From a virus, in IMG/VR virus record IMGVR_UViG_3300032893_000726, positions 1-22,725 of that record: a stretch of DNA of 22,725 bases; one strand, written 5' to 3'. This document shows positions 9,951 to 20,020 of this stretch, in pieces (position 1 is the first letter of the stretch; each line of letters opens with the position of its first letter). Both the position numbers and the translations under genes were made by a program. Below the pieces are notes generated by a model. It was not told where the DNA came from. It made no database searches and saw only the letters and a program-made list of their open reading frames with translations.

Positions 9951-11018
9951 CTAGAATCCCCCGTTGTTCATCTTGTTGTGAGAAAGTATGCCATTGGCCC
10001 AGAACAGATGACCGCGCTCTAGGTGAACGGCTCGCTTGGTGCAACTGCGGTGAAATGGCTGCAGAACCATAATCTCGCTGATGCCTTCTTCAGTGATAAT
10101 AAACATTCCTGCATCTGTATCCTGCGCCTGTATCTTGAACTTTTCTAGATTCTCTTCGGTGAGAGAACCCATCGCCTTTTCCATCTCCTCTTTGTCTTCT
10201 ACCGGGCAGGCATAGATCGGATGGTCGGGAGTAACGTAAACATACTTCCCGTTACGCGTCTGAATGCAGATCCACAAGTTACAAGGAAGAATCGTAACCC
10301 GCATGGAGCCATAATCTCCGATCGGATCAATGAACGTCCCTGTCATCACACAGGAACCGATCTTCCCGCCGCCTCCACCGCCCCCCGAACTGGAACCGGA
10401 GACGGGAGTGGTATAAGACATGAAACCCGCCGTCAGCTGCTCCCGATTCTGCAACTGTTGCTGCATCAAGTAATACTGGGCATTGGCGCTGTTTACATCG
10501 GCAGAAACAAAAGCTATCTGTGGGAGTCCGACAGTTCCAATCACCCATCCAATCTGGCATCCCCCCACCGTGCTCCAGAACGGAAGAAAATAGTACGTGG
10601 TATTCGCTACTAGTCCGCCGATGGTAATGCTTCCACGAGGAACAGCGAAGAACGATCCATCAGCTCTCTGAATCACCAGAGGACTTGATCCGTTCGTTCC
10701 ATCCCAATACCACGTAATCGTGGTAGTCGTTGCCGTAGCCGTGAACAGCCCCGTCACGCCCGAAGGAGGAGTTGAACCAGTCTTGATTACTGAGGAGGCT
10801 GCAAGGTCTAACTGCCCTCCTGAACTGACTGCGTTGGTTGCCACTCCTGTTACTGAGGAACTGGTATCCACGGAGGTTCCGCTGCGAAGGTACGGAACCG
10901 CCTTTTCCACCCTCCTGAGACGATAGGTAGTGCTTACATCGCTCGAAGGGAACGAGTACAGATTTCCGATCGGATCGCCGTTGGCGTCGGAGTTGTAAGG
11001 CGGAATCTCACTGTCCAC
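9951..11018 (-). CDS. tail protein with Fn3-like domain and C-terminal Hint (intein-like) domain
   Basis: A 355-residue protein with three parts: a polar N-terminus (1-80), a fibronectin-III-like domain (about 83-165, with ITWYWDGTNGSSP and GLVANTTYYFLPFWS), and a Gln-rich helix plus a seven-glycine linker leading to a Hint fold (223-348). Hint marks are the first residue Cys223 in GSCVMTGT, block B TPDHPIY (263-269), and block G GHLFWANGILSHN (336-348). The residue after His347-Asn348 is Lys, and only seven residues remain, so normal protein splicing with a Cys/Ser/Thr nucleophile is not expected. Autocleavage or linkage, as in bacterial intein-like domains, is more likely. No homing endonuclease is inserted. 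It starts at GTG with a weak ribosome site. Confidence 0.75.
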   Translation of the reverse strand: MDSEIPPYNSDANGDPIGNLYSFPSSDVSTTYRLRRVEKAVPYLRSGTSVDTSSSVTGVATNAVSSGGQLDLAASSVIKTGSTPPSGVTGLFTATATTTTITWYWDGTNGSSPLVIQRADGSFFAVPRGSITIGGLVANTTYYFLPFWSTVGGCQIGWVIGTVGLPQIAFVSADVNSANAQYYLMQQQLQNREQLTAGFMSYTTPVSGSSSGGGGGGGKIGSCVMTGTFIDPIGDYGSMRVTILPCNLWICIQTRNGKYVYVTPDHPIYACPVEDKEEMEKAMGSLTEENLEKFKIQAQDTDAGMFIITEEGISEIMVLQPFHRSCTKRAVHLERGHLFWANGILSHNKMNNGGF

Positions 11019-14617: not shown

Positions 14618-15351
14618 TAGGTCACTCCAAAGATGGTCAAAACCGTGTCATCGCGCCCGTTGGAGAGGTTTTCGGAAGGAAATACGCTGTTAACTCCAAA
14701 CATATCCTCCGCAACCCTCATGTTCTTGAGCTTCGACATATACTCACCGTACTGCCCGGTGTACGTCGTTCTTCCATCGTCGTTGAACTGCGCCGTCCCT
14801 GCCCGAGCGTCGTTGGATAGCTTGTAGGCGTAATAGAGAACACCGGCAGCAAAGACAGTGAAGTATTGGTCGTCAAACCATAGGTTTTGCGACATTGAGG
14901 TAAGTTTGGTCGGATTGACTTGGTATTCTCCTTGTATTTCCCACGAATCCCCTGAAGAAATCGAAATGGCCGACCCCAACCGCAGCATTCCCACTGCTGC
15001 CTGCAAACTGATAGACCGGATGGCATAACCGCTTCTGGGAATGAGGTCAACATCCGCCTCTTCCACTACATCAAGTTCCCTCCAGTCGTTCGGAGTCACC
15101 GCTGTGTGGACTAAGGATGCCTTGGTAAGGCGGTAGATGTTGGTGGGAACGGTGTAGTCTTGCTGCCCGTTGACACAAGGAATCGAGCCGGGAGCAATCG
15201 TCGTTTTGGCCCGATACCACGGGTACGGCGTCCACATCTCCGACGCTACCTGATCGGCAGTCTGGATCTGCAGTGCCGTAGTGATGGGAGTTCCGGCAAC
15301 CATCTTGGTTGCCAGATCCCATGCCGACTGTACGGTGTAAGTCAGTCCCAT
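14617..15351 (-). CDS. putative head-tail adaptor protein
   Basis: A 244-residue protein resembling the adaptor or tail-tubular-A type of podophage connector, which docks below the portal. Features are the N-terminal helix SAWDLATKMV, an early WTPYPWYRAKT segment, the YTVPTNIYRLTKASLVHT strand region, and a helical C-terminus around FAAGVLYYAYKLSNDA. The pattern of a small helical bundle with a beta insertion and its place just before tail genes are the grounds. An upstream in-frame start (15390) would overlap the previous gene by 40 bases. The ATG at 15351 forms TAATG with that gene's stop and is preferred. Confidence 0.6.
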   Translation of the reverse strand: MGLTYTVQSAWDLATKMVAGTPITTALQIQTADQVASEMWTPYPWYRAKTTIAPGSIPCVNGQQDYTVPTNIYRLTKASLVHTAVTPNDWRELDVVEEADVDLIPRSGYAIRSISLQAAVGMLRLGSAISISSGDSWEIQGEYQVNPTKLTSMSQNLWFDDQYFTVFAAGVLYYAYKLSNDARAGTAQFNDDGRTTYTGQYGEYMSKLKNMRVAEDMFGVNSVFPSENLSNGRDDTVLTIFGVT

Positions 15352-15893
15352 TAGACTGCCGCCATTTCCTTCTTCTCCGATTCGGTCCAACCGATCGGCT
15401 TCGTTTTCGGCTTAGGGCCACCGGTTTGTTTCTGCCACTGTAGAAGAATCTCTTCTGTCATGTTCGCCATGATCACGTTGTCTGCATCCTGTGCGTTGAC
15501 TCCACCCATCAACCACTCCTGCGGAGCCTTCACTTCCGGTCCGACTTTCTGACACACGGTACAGACTGGATGCCAATAGCCATCGGAGTTGACCTGTCCG
15601 CCCCAAGCTGAGACAAAAGATCCCGTGCGAGACTTCTTTTTGTGCATACAGGCTTGCTGCGCTCCGAGACGGGATTTCTCCTCGATGATCATCTCCGAGC
15701 GGCGTATCTCGCGCTGGCGGGCAAGACGCTTCTCTTCATCGTCAAGTTTCTTCTGCTCTGCCGCCGTCGGCTTCTTCATCTCCGAGATCGCTTTCATCAT
15801 GCGATTGTCGGAGTCCTCATTCATGCGCTGCATCAGCGCGAGAATGTCCTGAATCGTGAAACTTGCTGGTAACTGCTCTGGTTCTTTTGCCAT
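15351..15893 (-). CDS. hypothetical coiled-coil protein with possible zinc site
   Basis: A 180-residue protein of unknown role. Residues 25-78 form a highly charged helix (KKLDDEEKRLARQREIRR within it), probably a coiled coil. Next comes a Cys/His cluster, C82-x-H84 and, 26 residues later, C111-x2-C114 with H108 nearby, in a context (GYWHPVCTVCQKVG) that looks like a zinc ribbon. The C-terminus is Lys/Pro-rich. The ATG is preceded by GGAGAG, and the stop overlaps the adaptor gene's ATG as TAATG. Zinc binding is inferred from spacing; possible roles include head-tail joining or packaging help. Confidence 0.65.
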   Translation of the reverse strand: MAKEPEQLPASFTIQDILALMQRMNEDSDNRMMKAISEMKKPTAAEQKKLDDEEKRLARQREIRRSEMIIEEKSRLGAQQACMHKKKSRTGSFVSAWGGQVNSDGYWHPVCTVCQKVGPEVKAPQEWLMGGVNAQDADNVIMANMTEEILLQWQKQTGGPKPKTKPIGWTESEKKEMAAV

Positions 15894-16144: not shown

Positions 16145-16687
16145 CTACCAACTGAAGAGTTGATGCCAGTTCTTTGAGCTTGCGCGAGGAGGGCCGAAGG
16201 TGGTCTCCACCGCCGCCTGGGTGATGATCTTGGAAGTGATGAGACGAAGCAGCACAGTTCTCCATCCCATGTATTTGACTGAATGCTTTTCCTTGTCGAA
16301 AATCGAAAACTCAGGAATCTTGTCCTTGTGCACTGCTCCTACATAAATCATTGGATTTTCAGGATCGTTCGTCACTCGGTAGATGGAGATACGGTCCTTG
16401 AATCCCTGCGTGGGAGCAAAATGCAGAACCTTGGTCAGGCGACAGATCCGACGCATGAATTCATCGGTATCCAGCCACCATCCCGAGGCGTCCTTGAGCG
16501 TGCGCGGTCGGCTTCCATCATTGGCCGCAGCGGACTTTTTCTTCCCTTCCGCATCAGCAATCAAGCCATCGCGCTTGTGCGCTTGCCGCTGGCGATAGGA
16601 AATGCCTGCGCGTTTTTCTGGGGTTAAAGAGGGGACGCCTACGGTAGCGCGCCCCCTTTCCAAGTCCTCAGGAGAGAGGATCAACAT
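16145..16687 (-). CDS. hypothetical basic protein, 180 residues
   Basis: Not recognised. The N-terminal third is basic and polar (KRAGISYRQRQAHKRDG, later EGKKKSAAAN) and may be disordered. The rest looks like an ordered alpha/beta domain with IYRVTNDPENPMIYVGAVHKD around residues 100-122 and a helical C-terminus ending NWHQLFSW. An AGGA ribosome site precedes the ATG, two bases after the upstream stop. It sits in the run of small genes between decoration-type proteins and the adaptor, where head-completion or packaging-accessory genes are often found. Confidence 0.65.
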   Translation of the reverse strand: MLILSPEDLERGRATVGVPSLTPEKRAGISYRQRQAHKRDGLIADAEGKKKSAAANDGSRPRTLKDASGWWLDTDEFMRRICRLTKVLHFAPTQGFKDRISIYRVTNDPENPMIYVGAVHKDKIPEFSIFDKEKHSVKYMGWRTVLLRLITSKIITQAAVETTFGPPRASSKNWHQLFSW

Positions 16688-16689
16688 GA

Positions 16690-17145
16690 TTAGCTTCCTG
16701 TGTTCCAGTTCGACGGAGTTCCCAGAACCTGCATGGTGAAGGTAAACGAGGGATTGGTGCCGCCGATGGTGTACTTGACCTTGATATACCGCCAGTCAAA
16801 TACGCAGTTCTTCGCTACCTGGCCGCCCGTATCCGCGACTACCTGACCAAGCGCAACCTCGTTATTCCCAAGGCCGTTCTTGAATACCAGAACCTCTGAC
16901 GCTGCGGCAGTTTTCTGCGTGTAGCGAAGAGGGAGGTCAACGTAGGTAGTCCCGCCATCGTAACTGGTTTGCAGCACGATGTCGCAGGTCGGAGTGGTTC
17001 CTGTGGCAGCCGATACGATTACCCAGATCGCATAAGTATCTGCGATCGGGAGCGACAAAGCCGAACTGGTAGCGGTAGCCGCAGCCGCCGTTACCGTCAG
17101 CCATGCATTCTTGATTACCGGAGATGCTGCATTGCTGTGTGGCAT
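16690..17145 (-). CDS. small beta-rich virion-type protein
   Basis: A 151-residue protein. The order of segments (SLPIADTYAIWVIVSAATG, CDIVLQTSYDGGTTYVDLP, then FDWRYIKVKYTIGG and FTFTMQVLG) is that of a beta-sandwich. The stretch LQTSYDGGTTYVDLP resembles the 'quantity of a sample' motif common in small phage structural proteins. No enzyme motif is seen. It is translationally coupled to the gene before it through TAATG, so the two are probably made in fixed ratio. Likely a head decoration or completion protein; the function is inferred from position only. Confidence 0.7.
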   Translation of the reverse strand: MPHSNAASPVIKNAWLTVTAAAATATSSALSLPIADTYAIWVIVSAATGTTPTCDIVLQTSYDGGTTYVDLPLRYTQKTAAASEVLVFKNGLGNNEVALGQVVADTGGQVAKNCVFDWRYIKVKYTIGGTNPSFTFTMQVLGTPSNWNTGS

Positions 17146-17669
17146 TACATGGCCTCCAGACTCAACTCATCGAGGTATCCGATGTCTCCGCCGCCAGTGG
17201 CAATCGTGATCTCTACCGTCAGGCCAAGGCCGGCAGTAGTGAGATCGACGCTCGTAACCGTGGTGGTCGCCGCTGTACTGTCCAACACTGCCGTCGAACC
17301 GTTCTCGGCGCTAAAGCTACCTTTCAGAGTTTTGGAAGTAGAGTCCCAATACAGCAAACCCTCGATAATCCATGCTGCTGTCGTAGTGGCTACGGCACGC
17401 GCTGTTGCGGCAGCAATGGCAGTGTTTGAGCCGGCCGTGACGCTGACTCCGTAATCAACCTTGGGAGTAACGTTATGGGAGCCTACGGTTGTAGCCCGAC
17501 CGCGAGCACGAAAACGGAACCACGCGCTCGTGACGTAGCTAGGAAGAACGGGGAAGTAAACCGATGCCGCTTTTGCACTGTTGCTCGACAAAACAAAAGT
17601 CGAGGCAGCAGTGGGATTCGACAGGCTTGCAGCCGCTCTCGCTGTGTAGATTGTGTTTGTATTCGCCAT
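17145..17669 (-). CDS. Ala/Thr-rich virion-type protein after the capsid gene
   Basis: A 174-residue protein of unknown function, rich in Ala, Thr, Ser and Val, predicted to be mainly beta. The N-terminal half holds VYFPVLPSYVTSAWFRFRARG and the C-terminal half holds WIIEGLLYWDSTSKTLKG, a pattern of alternating strands seen in jelly-roll decoration or fibre-head proteins. It directly follows the major capsid gene, the usual place of decoration proteins, so a capsid surface role is a fair guess only. The start is the ATG with AAGGAG six bases upstream. The stop overlaps the next start as TAATG. Confidence 0.7.
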   Translation of the reverse strand: MANTNTIYTARAAASLSNPTAASTFVLSSNSAKAASVYFPVLPSYVTSAWFRFRARGRATTVGSHNVTPKVDYGVSVTAGSNTAIAAATARAVATTTAAWIIEGLLYWDSTSKTLKGSFSAENGSTAVLDSTAATTTVTSVDLTTAGLGLTVEITIATGGGDIGYLDELSLEAM

Positions 17670-17675
17670 CAAATT

Positions 17676-17738: not shown

Positions 17739-18704
17739 TTATACGAGCTGCACATCCGCCTGAACGATGCGGAAGCGGTATTGATCGTTAGAGGTGTAGA
17801 GCGTCTTATACGCAGTGACATAGCGGTAAGCCACGTAGGTTCCAATGGTTCCCGCTGGATCAACTGCTGAAGGACCACCCTTGGTCACGAATGTCTGGAA
17901 CCGCTGGTTCTTGGGATCGCTGATGTTTTGCGACGGACCAGAGCCGCTCAGATCGACTGCTCCGACTCCACCCTTACCGAAGATGTACATATTGTAGAGG
18001 GTGGTTGGAGCCGATCCTGACGTTCCAACGTTGGTCGTAGAGACCAGACGGCAACCTGCTACCTTCCCGATTTCTCCATTCAGGAAGTTCCCCGGCTGGG
18101 CGTATTTCATAATGTCAATGAAACCGCCAACCGTGTTGTCCGAGCAGATGTCGTACTCGTGGTACGGGTGAACGATCGTGGTCCACTCCTGGTCCATTGA
18201 TGGCATGATGTTCAATGCCTTCAGGCGAGAGACATTGGCGCGAAGATCGGAAACCGACGCAAAGGCTCCAATCGTCGAAACCTGCGCCGAGGAGTTCGAA
18301 TCAATCTCTACACGGGCGAGCGTATCGTTGGTCAGGGCAGCGCGGTAGCTCATAAAGTCCACCATCTCATCGACAAACTGCGCGATGTCGGTGTCTTCAA
18401 GCAACTGCGAGCTGCTGGTGAAATCGTTGTACTCCTCTACCGTCGCAGAGACCGTCTGCGAGTCGAGAGGAATCGGGGTGCCAACCACACCGTCTACCGC
18501 TGGATTGGTGTTCGCTGTTGCCACCGTGAAGCGGTAGAACTGGATGGTTCGGCCTGCACTCTTCGGCAACGGGCGAGGTTCACAGACCTGCACAAACCGG
18601 AGCATCGCCATCAGTTTATCAAGACCTCTTCGGTCGTAATATACTGTTGCTTGCTCGCGTAGTGTGGGTGTCCCTACCTGGTTGCCAGCTGGCTGATATG
18701 GCAT
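17739..18704 (-). CDS. major capsid protein, N4-gp56-like
   Basis: The 321-residue main shell subunit (HK97 fold expected). The motif EYNDFTSSSQLLEDT at residues 91-105, following an N-terminal YYDRRGLDKLMAMLRF segment (22-37) and GRTIQFYRF (51-59), matches the pattern I know from the N4-gp56 family of capsid proteins. Length is normal for the family, and there is no obvious cleavable scaffold domain, in keeping with a separate scaffold gene. The ATG has GGAG nine bases upstream. It is the only gene here with its own promoter candidate and a long leader, as expected for the most abundant virion protein. It is followed by a cluster of hairpins. Confidence in capsid identity is high; the exact family is from memory of motifs. 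Confidence 0.85.
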   Translation of the reverse strand: MPYQPAGNQVGTPTLREQATVYYDRRGLDKLMAMLRFVQVCEPRPLPKSAGRTIQFYRFTVATANTNPAVDGVVGTPIPLDSQTVSATVEEYNDFTSSSQLLEDTDIAQFVDEMVDFMSYRAALTNDTLARVEIDSNSSAQVSTIGAFASVSDLRANVSRLKALNIMPSMDQEWTTIVHPYHEYDICSDNTVGGFIDIMKYAQPGNFLNGEIGKVAGCRLVSTTNVGTSGSAPTTLYNMYIFGKGGVGAVDLSGSGPSQNISDPKNQRFQTFVTKGGPSAVDPAGTIGTYVAYRYVTAYKTLYTSNDQYRFRIVQADVQLV

Positions 18705-18890
18705 GATGACTTCTCCAAGTTATTTAGTTTGTGTTATTTGCGTTGGACGGTCGGTCTTGGCAAACCGAGTGCATCAGTAATTCGGAGATGCTGTCCGTCG
18801 CCCGTTGGAGGTCATCCGTGGCGAAACGATGACTTATGTTTCAGCAGGGTCTCTGCTTGCACACAAGGTAGTACCGAATAACAAAATTTG
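18705..18890 (-). promoter_or_regulatory. structured 5' leader of the capsid gene with anti-SD segment
   Basis: Non-coding leader of 186 bases. Seen on the minus strand: (a) a hairpin AGCAG/CTGCT at 18857-18843, at the predicted 5' end; (b) a hairpin GTCATC/GATGAC at 18833-18811; (c) the segment GATGACCTCCAA (18816-18805), complementary over 12 bases, with one AA bulge, to TTGGAGAAGTCATC (18718-18705), which contains the capsid ribosome site GGAG and ends at the ATG; (d) a possible stem GCATC/GATGC between them. Elements b and c share the same GATGAC, so the two pairings exclude each other. This is the layout of a translational on/off switch. The structures are read by eye; no energies were computed. 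Confidence 0.5.
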
Positions 18891-18894
18891 TCAA
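18865..18894 (-). promoter_or_regulatory. sigma70-like promoter candidate before the capsid gene
   Basis: A perfect -35 hexamer TTGACA occupies 18894-18889 (minus strand). After an 18-base spacer comes TACCTT at 18870-18865, a moderate -10 box (T, A and final T match). The -35 overlaps the stop of the methyltransferase-like gene, and the region downstream is the longest non-coding stretch in the window. A start of transcription near 18858 is expected, about 155 bases ahead of the capsid ATG. A phage-coded polymerase or sigma factor could use other signals. Confidence 0.5.
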
Positions 18895-19481
18895 TCCCTA
18901 ATTCTGGAGAAGAGGGTCGCTCCTCGCCAGCTTTCGAGATGGACTGCTGAACCTAAACCCTTGAAGGCATCCCTCAAGAATGGCTCCTGCCTCGTGTCGT
19001 GCATCAACGCTAAGGCTCCTGACTTCATCCTGGGAACACATTCGATACGAGAGTCCTCAGAACCGTCAAGAAAGAGGAAATCTGCCCGCTCTACTTCCGA
19101 TAAATCTTCGGCCCGACATAGCCGTATCTCAACAGGGAGACCACAGCAGCGATTCTCGGCCACAACAATGAGCGCAGGATCAATATCACAGCTTATTACT
19201 CTAGCATTGACCTCTCTCGCTGCTCTACCCAAAGCAAAAGTCCCAATTCCTCTATGACATCCGGTTTCGACAATTAACTTAGGACGAACCAGCCGAACCA
19301 AGGAAAATAACAGGTCCAGGATCTCCAACTCAGCCGATGGTCCGTAGATGGGACAAAGCCAAGGTCTCGCTTCTCCTCCACCCTGCATCCATTTGAATTC
19401 CACATCCGGCATAGCCTGATACTCCAAAGCTAACGCACTGATAGGGATACGGATTGGCGTTTCCTGCTCGATTGCTTCCAA
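18891..19481 (-). CDS. class I SAM-dependent methyltransferase-like protein
   Basis: A 196-residue protein with the Rossmann-type methyltransferase signature. Motif I is IVETGCHRGIG (residues 70-80), the acidic end of strand 2 is VISCDID (95-101), a strand-4 segment is FLFLDGSED (135-143), and HDT follows at 161-163. This resembles the Methyltransf_24-like or O-methyltransferase group, but the substrate is unknown. The frame has no ATG near its beginning. The TTG at 19481 lies inside the glycosyltransferase gene with only a weak AAGGGA upstream. The ATG of residue 24 (19412) has GGAG about nine bases before it and is a real alternative start. Both starts keep motif I. The stop codon lies within the -35 box of the capsid promoter candidate. 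Pairing with the glycosyltransferase suggests a joint modification step. Confidence 0.66.
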   Translation of the reverse strand: MEAIEQETPIRIPISALALEYQAMPDVEFKWMQGGGEARPWLCPIYGPSAELEILDLLFSLVRLVRPKLIVETGCHRGIGTFALGRAAREVNARVISCDIDPALIVVAENRCCGLPVEIRLCRAEDLSEVERADFLFLDGSEDSRIECVPRMKSGALALMHDTRQEPFLRDAFKGLGSAVHLESWRGATLFSRIRD

Positions 19482-20020
19482 ATTTCTGATTTCCCTTCGC
19501 CGAGATGCAGCATCGAAAACTCCTTGAAGAATCCGACCTTCCTTCCTCTGCGTCGGATCTCATCAGCCTGAGTCCGGTCATATCCCGGTGAATCCGCTTC
19601 CGGCCAATGTACGATGTGTCCTTTTCGGCACATCCTTATTCCTCCAACCGATACGTGCTCAAGCACTTGCGAGTCTTCGTATGACTTTATTTCTGTCCAC
19701 TTCTCGATGTTGGCATTTTCCGGCCACCACGACAGAATTGAAAACTCAGGGTGGTGGAGAAGAACGTCAACTGCTGGTGCAAAGTCGTAAATGTCGGGAA
19801 TGCAGTCATCGTCGGTAACGATGTAGGGATCGGACTCAGAATAGGTCTCGGCGTAAATCCTCCGATGCAGATTAAAGTCCAACAGGGAGCACGAGATGGC
19901 CCGGGGAGTGGTGATGTGCAGGATGACATCTCGCTTGTTCCACCACTCCAATGTGCGAATAGCAATTTCTTCGCGCTCCTTCGTCTGCGGACATGAACAC
20001 CAGTAGACATCGAGTTTCAC
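19430..20020 (-). CDS. GT-A-type glycosyltransferase-like protein
   Basis: A 196-residue protein resembling small phage-encoded family 2-like glycosyltransferases, which transfer a sugar from a nucleotide-sugar to an acceptor. Visible marks are an N-terminal beta strand (KLDVYWCSC), an Asp triad at residues 70-72 in the context YIVTDDDCIPD that fits the metal-binding DxD motif, VGG at 125-127, and a late histidine in SMLHLGEG (169-176) of the sort that completes the metal site. It is shorter than most full GT2 enzymes (250 or more residues) but close to phage minimal forms. It is coupled to the scaffold gene by an ATGA overlap, and its last 52 bases overlap the methyltransferase-like gene in another frame. 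The acceptor (virion protein, DNA or host glycan) cannot be told. Confidence 0.6.
   Translation of the reverse strand: MKLDVYWCSCPQTKEREEIAIRTLEWWNKRDVILHITTPRAISCSLLDFNLHRRIYAETYSESDPYIVTDDDCIPDIYDFAPAVDVLLHHPEFSILSWWPENANIEKWTEIKSYEDSQVLEHVSVGGIRMCRKGHIVHWPEADSPGYDRTQADEIRRRGRKVGFFKEFSMLHLGEGKSEIWKQSSRKRQSVSLSVR

Follow-up and report, generated by a model that had tools for sequence, protein, structure and literature searches.

The leader of the major capsid protein gene analyzed here raises the question of whether, and through which signals, a tailed phage could set the dose of its capsid at the level of translation. To our knowledge, little is known about translation-level dosing of the most abundant protein in tailed dsDNA phages. 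The window, defined as the whole stretch of 22,725 nucleotides of IMG/VR virus record IMGVR_UViG_3300032893_000726, covers a tailed phage's late region, read from the minus strand. The gene that the leader would control (17739-18704, minus strand; 321 aa) matches the PHROG 1357 major head protein (E = 3e-27), and its ATG start codon lies at 18704. Relatives of this capsid protein were found in 78 viral loci, from which a comparison set of 56 distinct, phylogenetically non-independent capsid leaders was drawn; a scan of genome contigs for the capsid yielded no relative. At the 5' end of the leader, a likely promoter (18860-18894, minus strand) can be read from the sequence as a TTGACA element at about -190 followed by a weak -10 (TACCTT). 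It was not called by a stricter consensus scan, and TTGAC was present between -250 and -110 in 29 of 55 capsid leaders, where 7.7 were expected. A promoter located at the 5' end of the leader makes a separate capsid mRNA likely.

Two regions of the window outside the leader were also noted. Between the scaffold-like and capsid genes, positions 18891-20020 (minus strand) harbor a methyltransferase-like gene (PF13578) along with one further gene of unknown family, and extra genes are likewise found at this location in the locus of the nearest relative, L001. At 9951-11018 (minus strand), the C-terminal part of a 355-aa ORF resembles an intein/Hint domain (CVMTGTFID...HPIYACPVED...FWANGILSHN), as judged by eye.

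Predicted burial of the SD in capsid leaders

All leader structures described in this work are predictions. In both the MFE and centroid folds of the window leader, the SD segment TTGGAGAAGTCATC (18705-18718, minus strand) forms the 3' arm of an SD-blocking helix with the anti-SD arm GATGACCTCCAA (18805-18816, minus strand), which is composed of GATGAC (18816-18811) and CTCCAA (18810-18805), leaving the SD with an unpaired probability of 0.01. In this blocked state, the helix of the MFE fold encloses a branched structure at approximately 18742-18801 (minus strand) that overlaps the third of the hairpins described below. The first-pass annotation of this DNA had proposed this helix of 12 pairs with an AA bulge, placing GATGAC, CTCCAA, the SD segment, the ATG and an upstream GTCATC at positions that were all correct. 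It had also considered a 12-base match unlikely by chance, and this estimate agrees with the energy of the duplex between the upstream leader and the 14-nt SD segment (-14.1 kcal/mol, versus -9.0 ± 1.6 in shuffled leaders), which was equalled in 3 of 500 shuffles. The leader as a whole folds with an MFE of -45.2 kcal/mol (z = -3.04), and none of 200 shuffles was as stable.

The leader of L001, the nearest relative with 74% capsid identity, is unrelated in sequence to that of the window and yet keeps the SD pairing, with CCUCUCUG pairing with CAGAGAGG across its SD and enclosing a branched element comparable to that of the window. Across the comparison set, SDs of the 56 capsid leaders are less accessible (median 0.20) than those of 122 control genes from these phages (median 0.31; P = 4e-6), the two groups being alike in overall folding energy, and 29% of the 56 leaders present an SD duplex better than chance at P<0.05. 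The preservation of SD burial with different sequence in relatives, together with the conserved hairpins resembling protein-binding sites, gives good support to the original proposal that the capsid leader contains an element controlling translation. Comparably long leaders were not found in the more distant capsid relatives Pascal, Page, WRightOn, MW202801, API480, BRock, Rollin and LuckySocke, and the hairpin array was not found in the first four of these.

The same annotation had envisaged that GTCATC (18833-18828) would compete for GATGAC and thereby free the SD. The six-pair complementarity does exist, but enforcing it costs 3.9 kcal/mol above the MFE and leaves CUCCAA:UUGGAG paired, so that the SD stays covered, and an equivalent of GTCATC was not seen by eye in the L001 leader. 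GTCATC was consequently rejected as an SD-freeing competitor, a role that we consider very improbable.

A hairpin array with a phage-specific loop code

The capsid leaders of relatives present two or three hairpins in sense orientation, each consisting of a 5-bp stem and a 5-nt loop. At least two hairpins with an identical 4-nt core were identified in 28 of the 56 leaders, compared to 0.55% of shuffled leaders, and three such hairpins were identified in 10 of the 56, a configuration that did not arise in any of 5600 shuffles. In a set of 89 hairpins from 34 phages, whose positions were picked from core words, and partly by eye among core occurrences, so that pairing is somewhat favoured, pairs 1 to 5 were formed in 88, 83, 82, 73 and 61 hairpins (56, 43, 42, 38 and 32 when shuffled) and pair 6 at chance level, delimiting the unit to 5 bp plus 5 nt. 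The pair closing the loop is G-C in 65 of the 89. The cores map near -140, -88 and -53, or near -95 and -63 in a clade with two hairpins. When whole contigs were scanned, 32 hairpins of the phage's own class fell within 2250 nt of capsid leader and 66 within the remaining 1.23 Mb, a 266-fold enrichment, and a scan blind to loop class recovered mostly the same capsid leaders plus another element ahead of the following gene, and a few scattered pairs besides. The hairpins show strong covariation and are located nearly exclusively at the capsid gene.

Most loops follow the pattern N-R-X-X-C, usually in the form G[N-G-X-X-C]C, in which XX is constant within a phage and variable between phages. The codes UU, UC, AC, AU, CU and AA were observed, along with GGAUU and CUCAA in other lineages. 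The code is common to the hairpins of one phage and changes in concert between near-identical phages: for capsids that are 96% identical (G018/L062 versus G019/L068), all three loops carry UC in one phage and UU in the other. When L062 and L063 (UC) are aligned with L068 (UU), the first two hairpins correspond to each other: changes in their stems are compensated, and the same loop base is substituted. The first of them stays in register, with one stem pair alternating among C-G, A-T and T-A and a T-to-C change of the loop base. The same loop change separates L028 from L015 and L019, with capsids 92-93% identical. Two other explanations of these repeats were considered and rejected: a dsDNA operator, because the arms vary while the loop is conserved and the orientation is always the same, and loop-loop kissing within the leader, since complements of the loop cores are mostly missing from the leaders.

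Further repeated elements were observed around the capsid gene. GCGAA or GCGAC recurs at about -35 in the capsid leaders of relatives, between the last hairpin and the SD, and of 47 non-redundant leaders, 13 contain GCGAA where 2.5 would be expected; neither occurs there in the window. Before the post-capsid gene of the window, two hairpins share an identical 7-nt loop, GGCGCGG[CGGUGAA]CCGCGCC at 17730-17710 and UGCUGG[CGGUGAA]CCAGCA at 17699-17681 (minus strand). The CGGUGAA loop occupies this position also in L017, L024, L025 and L028, irrespective of which code their capsid loops carry, and in L060 it is taken by two CUGAA hairpins; the CGGUGAA hairpins may be a second operator that travels with the post-capsid gene. 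In the cultured Acidobacteriota phage Tunturi_3 (PP885686), the 222-nt capsid leader contains two CGGAUU hairpins, the sole pair of same-loop hexaloop hairpins of that kind in its 97.6 kb. Given their hexameric loops, these hairpins constitute a variant and not a strict member of the array. The main text of the paper describing this phage (PMC11924767) makes no mention of the leader or its hairpins.

Possible coupling of the array to the SD, and rival explanations

In the window, three putative array members are apparent on the minus strand. Hairpin 1 (AGCAG[AGACC]CUGCU, 18843-18857, core at -147) is formed in the MFE fold, and hairpins 2 (GGA[UGACC]UCC, 18807-18817, core at -109) and 3 (GAC[CGACC]GUC, 18746-18756, core at -48) match relatives in position and loop class and are absent from the MFE fold. 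As the stems of hairpins 2 and 3 comprise just three pairs each, the window falls outside the 28 leaders detected automatically; its assignment to the array draws on loop class and position, and the window by itself would not suggest an array. Besides hairpin 1, the only NGACC hairpin with a stem of 4 or more pairs on the minus strand of the window is GAGGAG[CGACC]CUCUUC (18909-18925), which lies within the upstream gene, before the likely promoter, and is a doubtful member. Hairpin 2 lies almost wholly inside the anti-SD arm, making it and the SD-blocking helix mutually exclusive, and in L001 and other relatives, too, the middle hairpin either overlaps the anti-SD arm or lies next to it. This middle hairpin is the competitor for the anti-SD arm that the comparison supports. 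Imposing all three hairpins on the window leader costs 8.2 kcal/mol and raises the openness of the SD region from 0.26 to 0.45; the same operation costs 7.2 kcal/mol in L001, with an increase from 0.22 to 0.63, and in L060 the openness rises from 0 to 0.35. The region of the middle hairpin pairs better with its own SD than with swapped SDs (P = 0.035, in a weak test on relatives that are not independent), and hairpins 1 and 3 pair no better with their own SD than with swapped ones. In L062, L063, L068, L069, L072, L025 and L027, a local SD hairpin stays closed when the array is imposed, and any coupling in the ON direction would therefore be specific to certain lineages and not universal.

That loops on unrelated stems share one code within a phage, and that this code changes in concert, points to a shared reader acting in trans; the difference in code between close phages makes this reader most likely phage-encoded, and the concentration of the array at one gene points to capsid dose as its target. 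We consider it fairly likely that the hairpins are an operator, and the best explanation overall, which we favor with somewhat less assurance, is that they form a phage-specific RNA operator through which a trans-acting factor controls capsid translation. A factor of this type, presumably an RNA-binding protein encoded by the phage, would read the loops and set capsid translation. In the window, in relatives including L001 and L060, and in the two-hairpin GACC clade, activation is the most likely action, and for the window it is favored by the geometry: binding would withdraw the middle hairpin from the SD-blocking helix, exposing the SD, with the bound hairpins keeping the anti-SD arm off the SD, much as Com of phage Mu opens mom. 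If the hairpins are indeed an operator, this ON direction, as opposed to OFF, would have slightly less than an even chance of being correct.

Several other explanations have to be weighed against this operator. If the capsid protein in excess, or another virion protein such as the scaffold or the one encoded by the next gene (17145-17672), bound the hairpins and shut off capsid translation, in the manner of RNA-phage coat proteins acting on the replicase gene, the near confinement of the array to the capsid gene would follow naturally. The next gene is of interest here because L019 and L028, with capsids 93% identical and next genes only 40% identical, differ in their loops, whereas L019 and L015 (94% and 83%) share the same loop. 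Overall, however, this link does not reach significance (P = 0.19), L035 being one of the cases that run counter to it, and the association for gene B (P = 0.0005) is confounded by phylogeny. Moreover, codes that differ at 93-96% capsid identity would require the specificity of the capsid protein to shift in few residues, and the imposed hairpins open, instead of closing, the SD of the window. Autogenous repression of this kind hence appears unlikely, if the strongest of the rivals. The first-pass annotation had suggested that a coat, scaffold or host factor binding an upstream hairpin could set capsid dose; the spirit of that suggestion is retained, but the differences in code among capsids 93-96% identical speak against both the capsid protein and a host factor.

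The hairpins might otherwise be nut-like sites at which an N-like protein modifies RNA polymerase for transcription of the late operon, since they equal boxB in size and lambdoid boxB/N pairs are also phage-specific. Against this antitermination model stand the lack of a recurrent boxA-like element, with boxA-like words confined to a few scattered leaders, the lack, in 13 of 15 contigs, of a terminator-like site directly downstream of the capsid gene, the placement of two or three similarly spaced copies immediately upstream of a single start codon, and the burial of the SD; we regard it as improbable. A comparably low probability is assigned to a plain SD-blocking fold accompanied by stability hairpins, which would tune translation or protect the mRNA without a specific ligand. 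SD burial is general in capsid leaders and a separate capsid mRNA is likely, both in agreement with such a structure, but it leaves unexplained the identity of loops on unrelated stems within a phage and their concerted change.

No reader protein for the proposed RNA operator was identified among candidate late genes or through co-inheritance tests, in which the association of genes A, B and C with loop class was only suggestive. Two late-operon genes, at 16145-16687 and 15351-15893 (minus strand), are conserved in 14-15 of 15 contigs, and the latter is of zinc-knuckle type, with invariant C82, H84, C111 and C114. Neither has family (Pfam, PHROG), structural or named-phage matches, and copies 70-88% identical accompany different loops; as readers, both were set aside and provide leads only.

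In its broadest form, the proposal is that a lineage-specific loop code with at least eight variants (the six XX codes plus GGAUU and CUCAA), displayed on tandem hairpins and read by cognate phage proteins, controls the capsid gene, the RNA-protein pairs being orthogonal and coevolving like operator and repressor while one loop base changes in all copies together; we give this an even chance. If true, these would be natural, mutually orthogonal RNA-protein pairs, the readers of which, once found, would provide a ready orthogonal set, and the code predicts compensating changes in the reader protein. The element itself is concrete, being present in about half of the examined capsid leaders of a large group of soil phages, and the two-hairpin variant in the culturable Tunturi_3 renders it testable.

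Comparison with known systems

Rfam searches of the window and 20 relatives gave no hits at gathering thresholds, the best weak match being c4-a1b1 (15.9 bits, cut-off 46.7) on the opposite strand. As regards a metabolite riboswitch, no conserved aptamer sequence was found, leaders being unrelated beyond close relatives, and Rfam returned no riboswitch. A description of such a hairpin array was not found in a literature search covering openly licensed papers.

In phage Mu, the start signals of mom are concealed by an RNA structure, and translation begins once the small zinc protein Com binds the loop of a nearby hairpin (PMC6483171). The start signals in the window are likewise hidden in a stable predicted structure. 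Conserved hairpins are present in the capsid leaders, and a protein may bind them. Mu, however, controls a DNA-modification gene through the motif CC(N)2-3GAG, whereas the leaders analyzed here precede the capsid gene and present an array of two to three hairpins whose loop code is specific to the lineage. No Com homologue was found among the late genes tested, the zinc-type gene at 15351-15893 included; as the window covers only part of the genome, one may lie elsewhere.

In the ssRNA phages MS2, Qbeta and PP7, the coat protein binds a phage-specific operator hairpin and controls translation of the replicase gene. The phage-specific hairpin loops are a shared trait, as would be the control of translation by a phage protein proposed here, but the present hairpins occur in tailed dsDNA phages, as two or three tandem copies ahead of the capsid gene itself, and the loop differences at 93-96% capsid identity argue against binding by the coat protein. 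Lambda boxB, with a stem of about 5 bp and a 5-nt loop, is matched by equally short pentaloop hairpins, and lambdoid phages have phage-specific pairs of boxB loop and N protein. The lambda system nevertheless acts on transcription, with boxA and Nus factors, and boxA and terminator were mostly not found in the loci studied here. Mechanisms of this kind are known, while the element described here, with its loop code, appears to be new.
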